Positions 1,062 to 54,633 of a stretch of DNA of 58,968 bases are shown here, one piece after another. The stretch comes from a virus, in the IMG/VR virus record IMGVR_UViG_3300044809_000038, positions 1 through 58,968 of that record; one strand, given 5' to 3'. The position numbers and the translations under genes are program-made. The notes beneath the pieces were generated by a model. That model worked only from the letters and a program-made list of their open reading frames with translations, searched no databases and had not been told where the DNA came from. Within the stretch, counting starts at the first letter, position 1. Every line of letters starts with the position of its first letter.

Positions 1062-3437
1062 TCAGAAAGGGTTCGCGGCCAGCACGATGTCGCGGCGTGC
1101 CGTCGCCGCCCTGGTGGCATCGTCCAGGCCGAACGTGGCCAGGGCGGCCAGGCGCTGCTCGGCCAGTGCGCTGGTACCGGTCGCGTCGCCGCCCGTGTCC
1201 AGGCCGTCCTGCTCGGCGGCCGGCGCCGTCTTGCCGTTGAGGCGTAGCGCGATGGCGTCGGCCAGCTGGTCGTAGTCCAGGACCACGGCGCCCGAGGCCG
1301 GGGGTGCCTCGACGGGTGTCGACTTGACCGCGCCGGCCGCGACGAGCGTCTCCACTTCGCCGCTGGCGATGCGGGCACGGGGCACGGGGAAGCCGCCGAC
1401 GTTGACGCCCAGGGCGGCCACGAGTTCGAGTCGGCCGCCGATCTTGCGCCAGTCGCCGGACAGGGCGTGCGCGCGGAGCAGGTCGAGGTCGGCGCCTGGG
1501 CGTGCGCGGCCGGCGACCCAGATGCCGTACTGGTCTTCGCCCGCAGCGACGTCGGCGACGGCGGAGCCCGTGTTGTCGTAGTGCTCCGCTGCTGGACCTG
1601 AGGACAGCCGTGTGCTGGCGTGACCGGTTCCCATGGTGATGTGCCCGACGGCGACCGTTCGCAGCTCTCCGTCGTCGTCACGTACCCGTACGGCTCCCGT
1701 GGCGAAGTACGCGTAGTCGGACGCGCTGCGTGGCGGCGTCACGCACTGGCCGGCGAAGCCGATGTGGCACGTGCCCCAGGTCGCCAGGTGGCCGTACACG
1801 TGGCCGTCCTCGCCCACCGTGAGCGCCGTCGGGCCGCTCAGCGCCGGGTTGGCGAACCAGTGCGCCGCGGGCAGATCGGCCAGGGCGCTGGCTGCGACGC
1901 TCTTCAGGCTGCCGTCGGGCGCCCAGTTGTCGGGGATCTTGCTGGACAGGCCGAGCTTCTTCGCCGCGGAGATGATGTGCTTGCGGATGGCGTCGTGGCC
2001 GGCGCCGCCGCGACCCACGGCCCGGATGGCGTTGTCGAGGTCGGCCGCGTTCTCGACGGGGTAGCTGGCTTCGCCAGCCGGCTTGCCCTTCGCCGGTGGC
2101 ATGGCCAGGCCCTTCTTGAGCGCGCGGGCCCGCTTCTCGGCGTTCGGCGCCTTACCGGCTGCGTAGCCCTCGGCGTCGAACTGCTCGGCCGATGCCAGGA
2201 GTTCGCACAGCAGGCAGTCATCGCCGAGTTCGGCCGACGTCCAGGCACTGGCCGCGACGGCATCCAGGTCGGCCGCGGGCACCATCTCCTGGCCGTCGAT
2301 GACCACGTAGGCCTCGGCGAACGCCGGAATCGCCACGAGCGTCGTCGCGGCGATCTTGCCGCCCGTAACGACCAGGCGCTGCTCGGCGTCGATGTAGTCC
2401 ATCTTCGCCTGCTCGTCGCCGGCCTCGGCCTTCGCCATCAGCTCGGCCATGCGCTCCGAGTCGATGAACTCGTACTCGGCCTGCATGTCGGACAGGTCGG
2501 CCGAGTTGCCGGTCAGGTACCCGCGGCGGGCCAGGGTCGTCGCGGCGGCATCGGGGTCGAGCTCGCCCTTGCCGGTCCACACGAACGAGCCTTCGGGGAA
2601 CGGCTCGCCGGTCTCCTTGCTGATGACGTCGGGGCCGGCGACGCGCGTCAGCTCGGTGATCTTGCCGACGATCGTGGCTCCGGTGTGGCCGTCGCCCGTG
2701 TTCTGCACCTGGGCCAGGACGGGGATCGGGAGGGCGCGGTGGCTCAGGGCGCCCGGCTCGATGTAGCGGTGGTCGCTGGTCTCGACGCCCTCGACGATGA
2801 CCACCGGGAAGGTGGCCGGCACGCCGTCGGCGTAGTCGGGTAGGTCGAGCGGCTGAGTGTCGCTGTCCGGTTCGTCGGCTGCTGCGTACATGGACTGGCC
2901 TCCGGTCAGCGGGTAGTCGGTCACGGTGCCGCCCAGGGCTAGGCGCAGCCGGTCGAAGGTGACGGGTCCGACACAGTTCGGGTCGAGGTCGGTGACCGGC
3001 ACGCCGTAGCCGGCGGTGACGTGCTGCACGAACGGGTCGTGCTGTGCGGGCATGAACGCACCCATGATGATGTTGGCGCCGTCCTGGGCGCGCTCGCGCA
3101 GCGGCGTGATCATGTCGCCCTCGGCGGCGTTGCCGACCATGTAGACCGTGGCGGCCTCGGTCTCGCCGACTGGTCGAGCATCCGGGTTGAACACGGCCCA
3201 GCCGAAGACGTTTGCCGCGCACGGACCGCAGTGGCTGGCCAGTCCGCCGGCCAGCGTGGCGAGCTGGGCGCCGATCTCGGGCGGCCAGGTGCTGACGTCG
3301 TCGCCCAGATACAGCAGCGTGAGGTGCAGCTCGTCGGGCGCGTCGCCGCCAGCCACGGTGAGCCGGCTGATGTCCGCCTGGCTGGGCACCAGGGCGATCA
3401 TGCCGCCGGTATGGGTCTGCTCGTCCTCGTCAGCCAC
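1062..3437 (-). CDS. Capsid maturation protease with N-terminal 2H phosphoesterase domain
   Basis: A 791-residue multidomain protein. Residues ~10-190 resemble a 2'-5' RNA ligase/2H phosphoesterase, with both HxT motifs present (HLT at 38-40, HVT at 139-141). Residues ~215-400 resemble a prohead-protease-type domain. Residues ~450-510 carry the ENAADLDNAIRAVGRG...KHIISAAKKLGL motif seen in phage head proteins. The C-terminal half has the actinophage maturation-protease signature (YGHLATWGTCHIGF, MGTGHAS, EHYDNTG, SGDWRKIGG, GGFPVPRARI). It probably processes capsid or scaffold during head assembly. The 2H domain could hydrolyse cyclic or 2'-5'-linked nucleotides. It overlaps the upstream gene by 8 nt and follows the portal region, as usual for a head operon. 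Confidence 0.85.
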   Translation of the reverse strand: MADEDEQTHTGGMIALVPSQADISRLTVAGGDAPDELHLTLLYLGDDVSTWPPEIGAQLATLAGGLASHCGPCAANVFGWAVFNPDARPVGETEAATVYMVGNAAEGDMITPLRERAQDGANIIMGAFMPAQHDPFVQHVTAGYGVPVTDLDPNCVGPVTFDRLRLALGGTVTDYPLTGGQSMYAAADEPDSDTQPLDLPDYADGVPATFPVVIVEGVETSDHRYIEPGALSHRALPIPVLAQVQNTGDGHTGATIVGKITELTRVAGPDVISKETGEPFPEGSFVWTGKGELDPDAAATTLARRGYLTGNSADLSDMQAEYEFIDSERMAELMAKAEAGDEQAKMDYIDAEQRLVVTGGKIAATTLVAIPAFAEAYVVIDGQEMVPAADLDAVAASAWTSAELGDDCLLCELLASAEQFDAEGYAAGKAPNAEKRARALKKGLAMPPAKGKPAGEASYPVENAADLDNAIRAVGRGGAGHDAIRKHIISAAKKLGLSSKIPDNWAPDGSLKSVAASALADLPAAHWFANPALSGPTALTVGEDGHVYGHLATWGTCHIGFAGQCVTPPRSASDYAYFATGAVRVRDDDGELRTVAVGHITMGTGHASTRLSSGPAAEHYDNTGSAVADVAAGEDQYGIWVAGRARPGADLDLLRAHALSGDWRKIGGRLELVAALGVNVGGFPVPRARIASGEVETLVAAGAVKSTPVEAPPASGAVVLDYDQLADAIALRLNGKTAPAAEQDGLDTGGDATGTSALAEQRLAALATFGLDDATRAATARRDIVLAANPF

Positions 3438-3699
3438 GGTCGTCCTCCAGTGCCCTCGGTGTGTCGCCGTCCCACGGATCGGTCGGCTGCGTGATCGACC
3501 GGACCATGAGCATGAAGCCGGTCCGGATCAGCCGGCGTGCCTGCTTCAGGTCTTCGCTGTGGATCTCGTCCTGGCCGGCGATCTCGCGCCAGAGGTCAGC
3601 CACGCCGGCTTCGCACATCTTGACCGTGTTGACCAGGCCGATGGTGGCGTTGTCGAGGTCGCGGTAGCCGGCGATCCGGCGGTGCTGGTTGTCGACCAT
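3430..3699 (-). CDS. Acb2/Tad1-hairpin-like protein, candidate anti-CBASS cyclic-nucleotide sponge
   Basis: An 89-residue protein beginning MVDNQHRRIAGYRDL. It has the layout of the Acb2 family: N-terminal HRxIxGYRDLxxxxIxLxNxxK, a helical hairpin, and a C-terminal LIRTGFMLMVRSITQP segment. Known Acb2 proteins bind cyclic di/trinucleotides made by CBASS (and some Thoeris signals) and so block abortive defence. Identification rests on recalled motif similarity and length. The ATG at 3699 is preferred over upstream in-frame codons because it gives the family N-terminus and leaves a 2-nt gap after the preceding stop. It overlaps the protease start by 8 nt. Confidence 0.75.
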   Translation of the reverse strand: MVDNQHRRIAGYRDLDNATIGLVNTVKMCEAGVADLWREIAGQDEIHSEDLKQARRLIRTGFMLMVRSITQPTDPWDGDTPRALEDDRG

Positions 3700-3701
3700 G
3701 G

Positions 3702-3914
3702 TCAGTCGTCTCCGTTCGTCTCGGCGCGGCTGGCCTGCCAGGCCGACCAGTGTCCGATGATCAGCGCGTAGACGCTGATCAGAGCCACGTACAGGATGGA
3801 GTTGTGCCACCACAGCACGGTCGGTACCGCCATGGCCAGCCAGAACAGTGCCAGGCCGGCGTGCAGCCGGCGCAGCCTGATGGCGTTCGCTGCGGCCTGT
3901 CGGCTCGCTGCCAT
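3702..3914 (-). CDS. Small membrane protein, two TM segments
   Basis: A 70-residue protein with two hydrophobic helices (LFWLAMAVPTVLWW and SILYVALISVYALIIGHW) joined by a short loop, with a basic N-terminus and acidic C-terminus. A GGAGAG ribosome site precedes the ATG at 3914. Function unknown; it sits just before the Acb2-like gene. Confidence 0.75.
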   Translation of the reverse strand: MAASRQAAANAIRLRRLHAGLALFWLAMAVPTVLWWHNSILYVALISVYALIIGHWSAWQASRAETNGDD

Positions 3915-3985
3915 GGTTACTCTCCGTCGCGAGATGATCTTGCTTACCGGTTACCCGCCCGTGAGCGAGGGAGCCTTTTGCCTGG

Positions 3986-4744
3986 TCAGAGGCTCAGATA
4001 CTCTCCGTGTTCGTTGGCCGGAATATGCCGTATCGGGGTGTCTTCCCCGATCGCGGCGTCGCCGGCCATCGCCTGCTCCGGGCGCTCGTGGCGACGCCAC
4101 AGCTCCTCGTAATGCTGCTGCACCCGCTCGCCCAGCAGCAGGTGCAGATCCAGCAGCGTGTCGAATTCGGGCACGTAGCGGCGCATGTCGTCGTTCTGCT
4201 TGAGCCGCAGCTGCGCGAACTCGACCGGGTCGATGCCCTGCGCCAGGACGCCCCAGGCGCCGCCGACCAGCACCACGACGCTGGTCATCACCTTGTCCAA
4301 GCCCCTCACGTACCGGGCCTCGGGCATCTCCTGGCGCTCGTACTCGCCCAACAGGTTGCCCACCCACGGCAGCGTGCCCCGGAACTGGTCGTTCAGCGCC
4401 TCGGCGGCGGCGTGCTCGCGCACCTGCTTGCGCAGCCGCTCCTGGTCGCTGATGCGCAACGTGGGGGTGTCGCCCGCGTACACCTCGGGCATGTCGTGGA
4501 TCAGGGCGAACTGGGCCACGAGGCCGCGGTCCAGGTGCGGGTAGTACCGGGCGGCGAACGCGCACGCCGTCCAACCCAGCATCACCGTGTGATCGGTGTC
4601 CGACTCCGGAGTGAGCTGGTCGGCATGGAAGCACGAGTTGCGGGCGATGCCGCCGAACGCCAAGGCCAGGGAGCCCAGCTCGACCAGGGCATCCGCGGTG
4701 TCGTGCAGGTCGGTGCCGACGTCTCGCCTGGCGATGGCCGTCAC
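3986..4744 (-). CDS. HD-domain phosphohydrolase (YfbR/HD_3-like)
   Basis: A 252-residue protein. Residues ~50-100 show the HD-superfamily pattern: ESDTDHTVMLGW, FALIHDMPEVYAGDTPTL, then a conserved GLDKVMTSV helix. This matches 5'-deoxynucleotidase (YfbR-like) proteins that hydrolyse dNMPs, and related HD enzymes in phages adjust nucleotide pools. Metal ligands would be the first His, the HD pair at ~83-84 and the later Asp of GLDK. The 70 nt downstream, before the next gene, show nothing obvious. The start overlaps the upstream stop by 4 nt. Confidence 0.75.
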   Translation of the reverse strand: MTAIARRDVGTDLHDTADALVELGSLALAFGGIARNSCFHADQLTPESDTDHTVMLGWTACAFAARYYPHLDRGLVAQFALIHDMPEVYAGDTPTLRISDQERLRKQVREHAAAEALNDQFRGTLPWVGNLLGEYERQEMPEARYVRGLDKVMTSVVVLVGGAWGVLAQGIDPVEFAQLRLKQNDDMRRYVPEFDTLLDLHLLLGERVQQHYEELWRRHERPEQAMAGDAAIGEDTPIRHIPANEHGEYLSL

Positions 4745-5007
4745 TTGGCGGCCTCGGGCTTGACGCCGTGCAGGTCGTCGTCGTGGCGCTGGAACGTGAG
4801 CTCGTAGTTCCAGCCGGCCTCGAACTGGTCGGCCACGTCACCGTTGACCGTCATGGTGACGGACAGGTTCGGGCTGGCCGCAGCCCAGGCCTTGTTGCGG
4901 TCGTCCCGGTAGTCGGGCGTGAACATCAGCGTCGCGCTACCGGGTCCGCCCCAGCCGGGAGACTGCTTGCCGGTGCAGGTGACTCGGGCCGTGATGTGCT
5001 TGTGCAT
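4741..5007 (-). CDS. Conserved small phage protein, beta-rich
   Basis: An 88-residue protein beginning MHKHITARVTCTGKQ and ending in an ELTFQRHDDD region. Short strands with alternating hydrophobics (SATLMFTPDY, NLSVTMTVNG, NYELTF) suggest a small beta fold. Similar ~90-residue proteins are common in actinophage structural regions but have no assigned function. An ATGA overlap links it to the HD gene. Confidence 0.75.
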   Translation of the reverse strand: MHKHITARVTCTGKQSPGWGGPGSATLMFTPDYRDDRNKAWAAASPNLSVTMTVNGDVADQFEAGWNYELTFQRHDDDLHGVKPEAAK

Positions 5008-5032
5008 GGCTGCTTCCCTTGTGTCGCTGGGC

Positions 5033-5137
5033 TTACGGGACTCGGCGGAACGGGCCGACGCCGATCATGATCAGGAACAGGAACAGGATGATGGCGATCA
5101 CGATCAGCAGGATGTTCGTCGTGGTGAGAGTGTCCAT
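5033..5137 (-). CDS. 34-residue single-TM protein
   Basis: A short ORF: MDTLTTTNILLIVIAIILFL, followed by FLIMIGVGPFRRVP. One long transmembrane helix is followed by a basic tail. It starts at a TGATG junction with the portal-MuF stop and has a near-perfect AGGAGGTG ribosome site, which argues that it is translated. Function unknown; small membrane peptides of this kind sometimes act in lysis. Confidence 0.7.
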   Translation of the reverse strand: MDTLTTTNILLIVIAIILFLFLIMIGVGPFRRVP

Positions 5138-7947
5138 CAGGTCACCTCCTTCGGGTTGCGGTCCAGGAATCGCTGCCGGAGCTCCTGAATGCGGTTGCGC
5201 TCGGTCAGTGTCGCCTGCGCCACGGTGCCTGTCCGGCCGGCCGCGGTATCGCCCTCCGCCAGCGCTCGCACGTCGGCCATGGCCTGCGTGTCCTCCTGGT
5301 GGACCTGAGTCTGCTCCCGAGCTTCGGGAATGGCCCAGACGGCGACGTAGTCGCACAGGCAACCGTCGTGGTCGCCCGGATGGCGGTAGGGCCCAACCCA
5401 CTCGCACGGCGGGCTGGCGATGGCGCTGCTGAGCTTCTCGTCGCGCCAGCCGCCGAAACGCAGGCCGTCGAGCTCCTCGTGCGGATGGAACCCGCGTGGG
5501 CTCGGCGTCGGGCCGTAGCGCCACTCGTAGCCCAGGTGTGAGCCGCCCTCCTGGGCGACGACCTGGTGCACGGTGTCGCCGACGAGGCCGCCGGCCGGCG
5601 TGCCGTTACCCGCCGCGCCGGTGCCGTTGCTGCTGGCGCCGCCCGAGCCGGGCGTGATGCCGCCGACCTCGGCCAGCGCCGCCCGGACCGCACCCGGCGG
5701 AACGAGCGTGTCCGACTGCTCGCCGAGCTCGTCCTTCGTCGGGTGGAACAGGTGCCGCTCGGCCGTCTTGAGCAGGGCGGCTTCCAGCCGGTTCCAACCG
5801 GCGCGCTTGCGGCCCGTCATGGCGAGCTCGATGGTGCGGCCGATGCGCTTGGCCTTGTCGCTGGCCGGGTCGAGGCGCAGCAGCTTGACGACAGCCGCCG
5901 CGAGCTGAGTGACGGCCTGGGCCACCCACTTGTCCCACTTGACCTGGAGGCCGGCGAAAGCGGCCTCCAGGAGCTTGCTGGCAGGCAGGCCCAGTGCCAT
6001 GACCGTGTCGGGTCCGAGGATGGCCGCGAAGTCCTCCACGGCAGCGTCAGCCAGCTTGGCGCGCACCTCGGGCTTGCCGTTGGCGTGACTGCGGATGCGG
6101 GCGCCGGCCTTCTCCAGTGCGCGCTCCATCGCGGCGTCGGCCGCCACCAGGATGCGGTCGCGCAGCGCGGCCTCGATCGCCGCCAGTTCGCGACTGGCAT
6201 CGACGTCCACAGACCAGTCCACACCTGTGGACAATTCGCCGGCCGCGGTGAAGCTCTCGGCGATGGCCGTCAGCACGTCGGTCTCCATGCCGGTGGCCTG
6301 CTCGTCGGTCAAACCCAGCTGCCCCAATGCCCAAACCCGTTGCGCCGCAAGTCCGGAAGGCTTCTGCGCCGGCTGCGTCGTGCCCGTCGCCGGCTGCGTG
6401 GCCGGCTGGCCGCCGGGCGTGGCCGGCACCTTCGCGGCGGGAGCCGGCGGTGCCAACGGGCCGTTCGTGCCGCCGCCCTCGTCCTGCGGCGCCTGGCCGA
6501 TCTCCTTGTCGGCGATCGTCTCCCGCGTCGGGTACATGAGCGGCTGGTCCGGGTTGAGCAGGCGCTGGATCAGCAGGGCGCTGGTCGAGGAGTCCATGCC
6601 CGTCTTCAGCATGATCTGCCGGAAGACCTCCTCGTCGCTGGGCGCGTCCTCGTCGGTGAAGCCCAGGGCATCGCGCAGCGCGCGGTCGCCGATGGCCAAC
6701 CGGTCGTGAGCATCCTTCGCGTCGCTGCCCCGGTTGGGGTTCTCGGTGAGGTTGCCGGCGTCGAACCACACCTGCACCTGGGAGATCTCGTCCAGGGTGA
6801 ACTGGTCGCGCGCCACCAGCATCGGCCACAGGTAGCCCTCGGTGAAGCTGTCGGCGATGTTCCGCAGTCGCGGGTCGATGTGGTAGCGGTAGGTGTTCTG
6901 GTCGATCTGGGCACCGGACCAGTGGTTGGTCTGACCGATGCCGCTCAAGATCTCGGGCGGCATGTCCAGGCCCGTGCCGAGACGGTTGAGCGCGTTGTCC
7001 AGCGACTCCAGCAGTAGCTTGCTGTCCTCGCGGACGAACGTGATGTGCCGGACCTCCCGCAGGTCCTCCGGGTTGCCCTTGAGCACCATCGGGACGACCG
7101 CGCCGGGCTCGCCCTCATTGTTGATCGGCGCCAGCATCGCGCCCATGAACTCGCTCATGAACTCGTCGGAGTCCGGGTCCTGGTCCTCGGCGTCGCGTGT
7201 CGCCGGCAGCAGCGACAGGCCTTCGGGCAGCAGCAACATCCCGTTCGCGGCGGCACGGGAGCGGCGGACGGCTCGGCGCTCGCGGCCGTTCAGGACGATC
7301 TCGCCGCACAGGTCCTGCATGGCGCGCATCGGGCTGTCGGCGAAGTCGGAGTACCGCGGATGCGGCAGCCACAGCCGCAGCATCTCCTCTTTCGCGGGGT
7401 CGACCTGGTGTCGGATCTGGCCCTTGCCGTTCTTGAGCAACAGCACGCCATCGGGCTGCACCTGCACCTCGTCGACCGACAGCACCTCCCAGCGCTCGCG
7501 CGCCAACTCGTCGATGTAGCCGTGCAGCCAGCACTCGCCGGTGATGTCGAAGTTCTCGGCCACCGCGCCCTGAAACTTCGCTCCGCTGGCGATCGGCAGC
7601 CGGCTCAGCTCGTCCTCGACCGCGGCCATCAGCTCAGGCGAGATGCCCTCGGGCTTGGCACTGAACAGGATCGGGTCGTCGCCCTCGACGTTCACGACAG
7701 CACCGACGAAGCGTGCCCGGCCGACGGCGTTGGCGATGAACTTGCCGGCGAACCTGAGCTCGGGAATCAGGTCGCGGTACACCCAGGCGTCGGACTGCCA
7801 CACCTGCTTGGTGCCGATCAGGACACGCACGCTGTCGCGGTTGCGGACGTCGATGCGGGCGCCGGCCGCGCGGAGCAGGACCATGCCGCGACGGGTCGGA
7901 CGCGCGGATGCGGCGATCTGCTGGTCCTGTGGCACGGCCAGGGTCAT
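5137..7947 (-). CDS. Portal protein fused to a MuF-like minor head domain
   Basis: A 936-residue protein. Residues 1-~520 have portal character: RDLIPELRFAGKFIANAVGRAR, long ordered alpha/beta segments, TGLDMPPEILSGIG, YLWPMLVARDQF. A linker rich in Ala, Pro, Thr and Gly (~520-570) leads to a helical domain. The last ~120 residues have a MuF-type signature (FHPHEELDGLRFGGW, PGDHDGCLCDYVAVW). The dodecameric portal is the DNA gate of the capsid, and MuF domains associate with it inside the head. In many phages these are separate genes; here they are one polypeptide. It overlaps the 34-residue membrane gene at TGATG. Confidence 0.9.
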   Translation of the reverse strand: MTLAVPQDQQIAASARPTRRGMVLLRAAGARIDVRNRDSVRVLIGTKQVWQSDAWVYRDLIPELRFAGKFIANAVGRARFVGAVVNVEGDDPILFSAKPEGISPELMAAVEDELSRLPIASGAKFQGAVAENFDITGECWLHGYIDELARERWEVLSVDEVQVQPDGVLLLKNGKGQIRHQVDPAKEEMLRLWLPHPRYSDFADSPMRAMQDLCGEIVLNGRERRAVRRSRAAANGMLLLPEGLSLLPATRDAEDQDPDSDEFMSEFMGAMLAPINNEGEPGAVVPMVLKGNPEDLREVRHITFVREDSKLLLESLDNALNRLGTGLDMPPEILSGIGQTNHWSGAQIDQNTYRYHIDPRLRNIADSFTEGYLWPMLVARDQFTLDEISQVQVWFDAGNLTENPNRGSDAKDAHDRLAIGDRALRDALGFTDEDAPSDEEVFRQIMLKTGMDSSTSALLIQRLLNPDQPLMYPTRETIADKEIGQAPQDEGGGTNGPLAPPAPAAKVPATPGGQPATQPATGTTQPAQKPSGLAAQRVWALGQLGLTDEQATGMETDVLTAIAESFTAAGELSTGVDWSVDVDASRELAAIEAALRDRILVAADAAMERALEKAGARIRSHANGKPEVRAKLADAAVEDFAAILGPDTVMALGLPASKLLEAAFAGLQVKWDKWVAQAVTQLAAAVVKLLRLDPASDKAKRIGRTIELAMTGRKRAGWNRLEAALLKTAERHLFHPTKDELGEQSDTLVPPGAVRAALAEVGGITPGSGGASSNGTGAAGNGTPAGGLVGDTVHQVVAQEGGSHLGYEWRYGPTPSPRGFHPHEELDGLRFGGWRDEKLSSAIASPPCEWVGPYRHPGDHDGCLCDYVAVWAIPEAREQTQVHQEDTQAMADVRALAEGDTAAGRTGTVAQATLTERNRIQELRQRFLDRNPKEVT

Positions 7948-7954
7948 GGCGCTC

Positions 7955-8278
7955 CTACTCCTGGTCGTGGGCAGCTAGGTGTCCGACTACCGTGCTGAAG
8001 GCCAACGGAACCGCCACGACGGGCCAGAGCGACGGCAGCAGCGACATGATCACTGCGACGCCGGCACTGATCCAGAAGCCGATGCACCACGGACAGTCGA
8101 CTAGGTTGACCAGCGGGTGTTCGGTTGGACGGTTGCGGTTCAGCCTTTCGATCACAGTATCGCGCCAGCGCGGCAACGGCGGCAGGGAGTCGCGGGTCCA
8201 CAGTCGAGTCAGGCGCGCGGCGGCCAGCGCGTTCACGGCCAACCAGACCGGATCGTGCAGCCAGTTCAGGCTGGCCAT
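7955..8278 (-). CDS. DUF1360-like membrane protein
   Basis: A 107-residue protein beginning MASLNWLHDPVWLAV. It has an N-terminal amphipathic/TM helix with AARLTRLWTRD, a central LVNLVDCPWCIGFWISAG segment and a final hydrophobic helix. The (D/E)CPWCxGFW motif after a TM helix is typical of DUF1360, a small membrane family often encoded just upstream of actinophage portal genes. Function is not established. Start chosen at 8278, where the ATG overlaps the previous gene by 13 nt. Confidence 0.7.
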   Translation of the reverse strand: MASLNWLHDPVWLAVNALAAARLTRLWTRDSLPPLPRWRDTVIERLNRNRPTEHPLVNLVDCPWCIGFWISAGVAVIMSLLPSLWPVVAVPLAFSTVVGHLAAHDQE

Positions 8279-52827: not shown

Positions 52828-54633
52828 TCAGGAGTTGATGAACGCGGCGTTGATCGTGCCCACCGTGGCGCCGGTCGGCTGGCCGGTGAACATGCCCAGG
52901 CGCAGCGACTCGATACCGCGGAAGGCCAGGCCCTCGAAGTTCTCGGTGAAGGTGCGGTACCGGTTGCGCGCGTTGAGCGCCGAGTCCCGCACCAGGCCCA
53001 GGTCGAGGGTGCCGCCGTCGAGGTACAGCCAGTCGCCGGTCGCGTACAGCGCCGAGTCGACCATGGTCGGGAACAGCGGGACGACCGCGCCGGCCGCGCC
53101 GTTGTTGTAGAACTGCTGCGGGATGGTCTGGCCCGCCGAGCCGCCGACCTGCGTCGAGGACAGGCCGTCCAGGTGCCACACGACGTTGACGCCGCGCGCC
53201 CGGAACCAGCCCATGATCATCTCGTCAGCGACGGCCATGGCCTCCAGGTCGTAGCTGAAGCCGCGCGTCATGTCCGCCCGGACCAGGTCCAGGACCCAGC
53301 GCGGCGCGACCCACGTCAGCGGCACCATCGTGTCGAGGCGGTGCCGGTTGCGGTAGTAGGCCACGGCCCGGTCCATCGTCACCAGAATGTCGCGCGCCGA
53401 GCTGACGTTGCCGCCGTTGCTGGTGGCGCCGGGCTGCACGAACGTCGCGCCCGGACCGAGCATCAGCTTCGAGCCGGGGTCACCAGTCTGGGTGCCGTCG
53501 GTCGAACCGTTCAGCAGCCTGGTCAGCAGCTGGTTCTCGGCGAACCGCGCCGCCGCGACCAGCGCGGCCTGCGTGGTGGCGTCGGCCCACTCCGGGTCGA
53601 ACCGGCTGGTGAAGTTCGGGAACTCCAGGCACAGGTACGTGCTGTAGACGCTGGCCGACAGCAGGCCGGGGCAGTTGACGACCGCGCAGCCCTTCTGGGT
53701 GGCTGCGTCGGAGCTGGACACGTTGACGTCGTCCGTCGCCGTCCAGATACCGAGACCGCCCGTGTGGCCCGACTCGCCGAGCACGTCGGAACCGAGCGCG
53801 TCGAACGGCGGCCGATAGGTGATGCCGCCGCGCTCCACCTGGAACCGGTTGAGCGAATTCATCACCGGTCGGTTGGTGATGCCGATGTTGTCGATGTCGT
53901 ACAGGATCTCCAGCGGTGCGCAGTACCCGCCGGCCGCGACGATCGCCGTCGGCTCCTGGCCGGCCTCGATCTTCCGGGTGTTCGTCGCCCAGGTCGCGTC
54001 CTTCTGGAGTACGCGGTCCTCGGGGTAGGTGAGCTGGAAGCTCACCACGTCGTGGCGGCTGCCATCAGAGCCGGCGCCCGAGACGAACACGGCGTTCATC
54101 TTGTTGGCCATAGCCTCGGCGAGCTGCTCGCGGTCGACCTCGGCGCCCGTGGTGAAGTGCGGCACGTTGCCGGACAGGACCCGCTTGGCGTTGATGACGC
54201 CTACGGCCGTCTCGGGTGAGCGCGCCTGGGTGGCGGCGCCGAGCGGTGCCCGCCCGGCCGCTGCGGTGACCGCGGTCGTGCCGTCGGGCTTCTTGCTGGT
54301 GGGACTGGTCTTGTGGCCCTTGGACTCCTCCAAGTCCTGCGCCAGGTCGCCGTCGATCGGGTCGCCGCCGTTGTCCGACTTCATCGCCAGGTCGGCGTCA
54401 GCGGTGCCGACCTCGGCGAGCGCGGCGGCGCGGCTGGCGGCCAGCTCGGCGCGCCGGCTCAGCTCGGCCTTGATCTGCTTCGCCTGGTCGGCGTAGCCCA
54501 CCAGCGTGTCGACGTCTTCCTTCGAGGTCGCGGCGGACAGCTCGGCTGCCTGCCCCTGAAGGTGCGTCAGCCCCGCGGACAGTTCGGCGTCGGTCGCCTT
54601 GTCCAGTGCGGCGAGAAGGGCTTCGATATCCAC
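52828..54633 (-). CDS. Major capsid protein, HK97-fold, with N-terminal scaffold-like region
   Basis: A 601-residue protein, GTG start. Residues 1-~115 are helical and charged (LTHLQGQAAELSAATSKEDV, DQAKQIKAELSRRAELAASR), like a delta/scaffold domain that the maturation protease could remove. Residues ~170-600 form the capsid fold: ATNTRKIEAGQEPTAIVAAG, YCAPLEILYDIDNIGITNRP, MNSLNRFQVERGGITYRPPF, FAENQLLTRLLNGSTDG, VPLTWVAPRWVLDLVRADMT, RNRYRTFTENFEGLAFRGIE. AGGAG 7 nt before the GTG. Confidence 0.92.
   Translation of the reverse strand: MDIEALLAALDKATDAELSAGLTHLQGQAAELSAATSKEDVDTLVGYADQAKQIKAELSRRAELAASRAAALAEVGTADADLAMKSDNGGDPIDGDLAQDLEESKGHKTSPTSKKPDGTTAVTAAAGRAPLGAATQARSPETAVGVINAKRVLSGNVPHFTTGAEVDREQLAEAMANKMNAVFVSGAGSDGSRHDVVSFQLTYPEDRVLQKDATWATNTRKIEAGQEPTAIVAAGGYCAPLEILYDIDNIGITNRPVMNSLNRFQVERGGITYRPPFDALGSDVLGESGHTGGLGIWTATDDVNVSSSDAATQKGCAVVNCPGLLSASVYSTYLCLEFPNFTSRFDPEWADATTQAALVAAARFAENQLLTRLLNGSTDGTQTGDPGSKLMLGPGATFVQPGATSNGGNVSSARDILVTMDRAVAYYRNRHRLDTMVPLTWVAPRWVLDLVRADMTRGFSYDLEAMAVADEMIMGWFRARGVNVVWHLDGLSSTQVGGSAGQTIPQQFYNNGAAGAVVPLFPTMVDSALYATGDWLYLDGGTLDLGLVRDSALNARNRYRTFTENFEGLAFRGIESLRLGMFTGQPTGATVGTINAAFINS

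Follow-up and report, generated by a model that had tools for sequence, protein, structure and literature searches.

The minus-strand frame at 3430-3699 of the window (the whole 58,968-nucleotide stretch analysed, an IMG/VR virus record) encodes an 89-residue member of the Acb2 (Vs.4) family. The protein's family, fold, pocket residues and gene position together point to a sponge for cyclic di- and trinucleotides that would block CBASS and is probably expressed late as part of the portal-protease operon, a reading to which we assign a probability of roughly 0.8. The family itself is already known, and as actinophage sponges annotated as Acb2 have been published, the window protein adds one more member to it in a less usual place, among head genes. 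On this reading, an actinobacterial virus lineage carries a true Acb2-type sponge within its late head operon. The features concerned are as follows.

1062..3437, minus strand: head maturation protease with an N-terminal 2H phosphoesterase domain, 791 aa (head-protease PHROGs; 62% identity to the L018 protein, MAFFT)
2898..3437, minus strand: 2H phosphoesterase domain of the protease, with HLT and HVT motifs (motifs, Pfam, model, fold search)
3430..3699, minus strand: gene for the Acb2-type hairpin (putative cyclic-oligonucleotide sponge), 89 aa (PF24729, phrog_717, 8h2j, residue mapping, fold)
3702..3914, minus strand: 70-aa frame with hydrophobic stretches (translation; phrog_24082, unknown function, E 2.7e-6)
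3986..4744, minus strand: HD-domain phosphohydrolase in the portal-protease junction (PF13023 HD_3, E 3e-18)
5137..7947, minus strand: portal protein, bordering the junction on its upstream side (phrog_776, E 4.8e-97; 59% identity to the L018 portal, blastp)
52831-54633, minus strand: major head protein (phrog_777, E 4.3e-59)

Family, predicted fold and pocket residues of the 89-residue protein

The frame is stop-free on translation, and the GYRDL...N.VK and TGFMLMVRSITQP stretches that the earlier note quoted as family hallmarks are present in its product. PF24729 (Acb2_Tad1_hairpin) is the sole Pfam family matched (E 9.5e-8, 32.6 bits against a curated gathering cut-off of 27), and the protein also matches PHROG 717 (E 2.2e-9), the set of Vs.4 homologues used in PMC10097602. 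The best solved chains in a phmmer search of the PDB are those of p26/Acb2 (8h2j, E 9e-6). A 14-row profile (A4) finds 8h2j at E 5.6e-22 and T4 Vs.4 (7uq2) at E 7.1e-9; the eight chains that it matches at E<=1 include 8h2j, 8ixz and 7uq2, and none is named Tad1. The profile match to Acb2, the absence of which had been named beforehand as one part of a refutation, was found with PF24729, 8h2j and 7uq2. A profile of 14 Acb2 proteins built without the window protein scores the frame at 74.8 bits (E 2.3e-22), the only match at E<=10 among 932 window frames, and shuffles of the protein (958 scored of 1000) reach at most 7.3 bits. With PF24729 over its cut-off and 74.8 bits set against this maximum, the family match is not due to chance. 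The position of the protein within a 29-row Acb2 tree was not resolved; PADLOC gave no match for the three proteins tested, and NCBIfam none of note.

The single-chain model predicts a short N-terminal helix and a two-helix hairpin (residues 17-41 and 48-70), the arrangement that defines the Acb2 fold, with core pLDDT >90 and an unsure C-terminal tail. The first eight Foldseek rows are all Acb2/Vs.4 chains, at E values from 2e-3 to 0.1 and none below 1e-3. VIA-align likewise places Acb2/Vs.4 chains at ranks 1-3, namely 8h2j_A (Z 7.9, 73 aligned, rmsd 2.3), 7uq2_B (Z 7.6, 71 aligned, rmsd 2.3) and 8h2x_B (Z 7.5), in contrast to an unrelated long-helix row with Z 7.0 and rmsd 8.6. These model-based matches agree with Acb2 membership but are no proof alone, Z values below 8 being modest for a helical hairpin.

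Acb2 of the Pseudomonas phages PaMx33/PaP2 (8h2j), the top fold match, shares with the window protein both the two-helix hairpin and the DNQH..I.GYRDL, N..K and TG..M...R.I.QP core. Compared to PaMx33 Acb2, the window protein has a shorter inter-helix linker and a longer C-terminal tail, with a tryptophan near where the PaMx33 protein ends in phenylalanine. T4 Vs.4 (7uq2) is more distant, at 23% identity. In Vs.4, cGAMP is held by Y8, H11, K23 and R79 and stacked by Y8 and F82 (PMC10097602). Three of these five contacts are kept, with Y8, K23 and R79 corresponding to Y12, K27 and R67 of the window protein, and across a 15-sequence alignment the tyrosine and lysine are present in 15/15 and the arginine in 14/15. 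The corresponding Y...K/R spacing occurs as a pattern in 67 of 69 distinct frames or fragments (E<=1e-8, fetched loci), the two exceptions being C-terminal fragments of split domain matches. The claim of Acb2 membership is thus supported by sequence, fold and pocket residues.

The two remaining contacts are replaced, H11 by L15 and F82 by T70. PaMx33 Acb2 is likewise without both (alanine at the F82 position), and as T4 is the one member of the 15-sequence alignment to have H11 and F82, their absence does not set the window protein apart from PaMx33 Acb2. Y8 and F82 mutants of T4 Vs.4 do not inhibit CapV (PMC10097602), so affinity is not readable from sequence. These replacements bear on an alternative that we regard as improbable though deserving of some weight: that the sponge mainly captures something other than cyclic dinucleotides, be it the cyclic trinucleotides of CBASS or of type III CRISPR or a signal used by actinobacteria. 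The absence of H11 and F82 would fit this, as would the varying ligand range of Acb2 homologues described in a review. However, the main dinucleotide contacts Y, K and R are kept, and p26/Acb2 in 8h2j holds 3',3'-cGAMP according to the structure title, despite PaMx33 Acb2 also being without H11 and F82.

The earlier note had further described the protein as anti-Thoeris. The same review attributes gcADPR capture to Tad1/Tad2 and cyclic di- and trinucleotide capture to Acb2, and for this reason the term should be dropped. Tad1 is described there as an N-terminal beta sheet followed by the hairpin; no such sheet precedes the hairpin in the 89-residue protein, which consists of helices only in the model. 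What it has in common with Tad1 is the name of the Pfam family, which covers both the Acb2 and Tad1 hairpins.

Under the preferred reading of an Acb2-type sponge, we infer from homology that six copies would form a hexamer of two-helix hairpins, with cyclic dinucleotides held at the subunit interfaces and cyclic trinucleotides at a second site, as reported for Acb2. By lowering the free signal, the sponge would keep CBASS effectors from being triggered. Such binding has a known cost, as the Panoptes defence in E. coli is triggered by Acb2 nucleotide binding (PMC12657218).

The head operon and its portal-protease junction

The proposed location in the head operon, just before a protease bearing a 2H domain, is borne out: the 3' end of the Acb2 gene lies within the start of the protease gene 3437-1062 (-), with an 8-base overlap, the protease matches head-protease PHROGs, the portal gene lies upstream and the major head protein is encoded on the same strand. 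The HD-domain gene and the 70-aa frame lie between the portal and Acb2 genes, the 70-aa frame being upstream of the Acb2 start with its stop two bases from the Acb2 ATG. From portal to protease, the minus strand showed neither a candidate promoter (sigma-70 consensus scan) nor a candidate terminator. Given this and its place between portal and protease, the Acb2 gene is probably expressed late together with the head proteins, which would fit a signal arising late in infection. PaMx33 Acb2, in contrast, is encoded beside a structural gene on the other strand, and the T4 Vs.4 gene lies in the vs region near regB. The HD_3 gene (3986-4744, minus strand) is without counterpart in the comparison with the related locus L018; its putative substrates could be nucleotides.

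In the order of matches to L018, the protease is followed directly by genes close to the opposite end of the window. This order suggests a circularly permuted genome whose cut, at window 1 and 58968, falls within the head operon. The first 12 kb have no near match among phages. Among named genomes, the protease alignment reached only Amycolatopsis taiwanensis and two Mycobacterium MAGs (3 loci). This agrees with an actinobacterial host, and the virus probably infects actinobacteria.

Single-sequence scans yielded two loci with P0001 and, with the 2H segment alone, none in viral_contigs; the alignments A1 and A2 were used instead. A portal alignment search returned only L018 again and one distant contig. 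We compared eleven loci carrying both a window-type portal and a 2H-protease (the window, L018, L105-L112 and L131), a set that leaves out loci with more distant portals and two repeats of L018. At four of the eleven, the portal-protease interval contains a hairpin gene; the content of the interval could be read in all but L110. Besides the window, these are L018, with an Acb2 50-52% identical to that of the window and adjoining the portal; L112, with an Acb2-type hairpin that does not have the DNQH start; and L105, where an 82-aa protein (7760-8005) is over the PF24729 cut-off. The L105 protein, unlike that of the window, looks like the other hairpin type. It has no credible PDB sequence match, and we label it Tad1-type from the Pfam match together with motifs that we take to resemble that type. 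Portal and protease abut without any insert in L106, L107, L108 and L131, and other small frames lie between them in L109 and L111. As gene place and hairpin type change among the junctions, the interval looks like a cargo site repeatedly holding hairpin genes, the four occupied junctions not being independent events because the loci are related. The junction is hence marked as a place to seek further anti-defence genes. In records G017 and G018, a hairpin gene is located elsewhere in the genome, outside the junction.

The 2H domain of the neighbouring protease

The protease's 2H phosphoesterase domain is genuine, with two HxT motifs on a 2H fold. Both motifs are invariant in 26/26 aligned 2H members, for which Pfam reports 2_5_RNA_ligase2 in 25, LigT in 17 and, weakly, Acb1 in 5. 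The window segment matches 2_5_RNA_ligase2 only, weakly (E 0.014), and has no Acb1 match; the full 791-aa protease has no Pfam match at E<=1, the domain emerging only as a cut segment. The domain model (pLDDT 93) has RNA cyclic phosphodiesterases as its nearest folds (1iuh, Z 16.4; 5h7e, Z 15.5), followed by rotavirus 2',5'-phosphodiesterase chains and then by Acb1 (7t26, Z 10.2, 129 aligned, rmsd 3.6), which ranks below the LigT/CPDase rows. Acb1 has the 2H fold and HxT/HxT tetrad in common with the domain, whereas the latter is fused to a protease and closest to LigT/CPDase enzymes. Because RNA cyclic phosphodiesterases are closest and Acb1 lies further down, the modelled fold allows cleavage of cyclic signals without indicating it.

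Among actinophages the 2H segment is common: 328 records of phages of Mycobacterium, Gordonia, Streptomyces, Rhodococcus and Mycolicibacterium contain it, either as a head-protease domain or as a stand-alone gene with an RNA ligase or LigT annotation. The separate form, with either annotation, lies downstream of the portal in Rhodococcus phage E3 (L100, 4992-5501) and Mycobacterium phage Tonenili (L102, 4767-5486). In L108, the 2H domain is split across two frames (3392-3802 and 3600-5783), so that either the gene is broken or frameshifted or the sequence contains an error. What substrate is acted on by the 2H domain fused to many head proteases is a testable question, general to actinophages.

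The earlier note raised the possibility of a pair in which one protein, Acb2, binds the signal while the other, the neighbouring protease with its 2H domain, cleaves it. Such a pair would be a single-operon counterpart to Acb1 plus Acb2 of T4, which carries both (PMC11722364). The part of this proposal that stands is a 2H domain with both HxT motifs and the Acb1 fold; the overlap of the two genes, the weak Acb1 matches in 5/26 members and the hairpin genes in 4/11 junctions also speak for it. The pairing itself we consider unlikely, since the domain is nearer to LigT-type RNA enzymes (1iuh above all) and the genes are usually apart. A PF24729 search covered 35 complete records, all 2H-bearing except L133, a sample that includes near copies and in which EMoore probably figures twice. 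Of the 34 other 2H-bearing records, 5 have a hairpin gene that exceeds the cut-off and 29 do not; none of the six named actinophages is among the 5. Conversely, among 80 Acb2 loci the 2H domain occurs in L018 only (1/80, within the DNA examined, many loci being short), and there Acb2 adjoins the portal and not the protease. The tblastn matches to Acb2, which fall in 85 records, include no 2H-phage genus names among the ten names and 60 rows listed, six further names lying outside the listing. No description of Acb2 beside a 2H-protease was found in the literature covered, outside which most subscription journals lie, and no paper on the phage BCSR5 phosphodiesterase was among the matches listed. 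More speculative still is the junction as a dedicated counter-signalling site, where two hairpin types sit beside a 2H nuclease that is tethered to the protease and breaks down the very signals they bind, with capture and cleavage at, perhaps within, the assembling head; we consider this very improbable.

Acb2 genes at other positions and in other phages

Hairpin genes also occur among or near head genes elsewhere: after the major capsid gene in a Leptolyngbya phage, before the portal in a Microcystis phage, in the interval from terminase to portal in L022, and, in L002, upstream of the genes for portal and major head protein. Together with the window, L018 and L112, these placements could suggest a hairpin protein recruited as a head-assembly or portal-associated factor that has lost nucleotide binding, but we hold this to be quite improbable, as the pocket residues Y, K and R are kept, relatives in other phages are found close to lysis genes or at a distance from the head genes, and the four insert-free junctions argue that the gene is dispensable for the head.

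The Acb2-type sponge reading has counterparts in other actinophages, likened by annotation only: putative Acb2 proteins are annotated in Microbacterium phage Statler (gp57) and in mycobacteriophages Xandras/BigBubba (genes 101/102) (PMC13348362, PMC11953737). Unlike the window gene, Statler gp57 lies far from its capsid protease gp24.

Two frames depart from the compact hairpin. In L134 (925-1704), from the 58.9 kb record G017 that is probably the Amycolatopsis prophage of L141, the last part of a 260-aa open frame is an Acb2-type hairpin (66.5 bits), which makes a fusion no more than possible. The Acb2-type protein of L002 (23-436) is 137 aa long and carries a long insert between the two helices.
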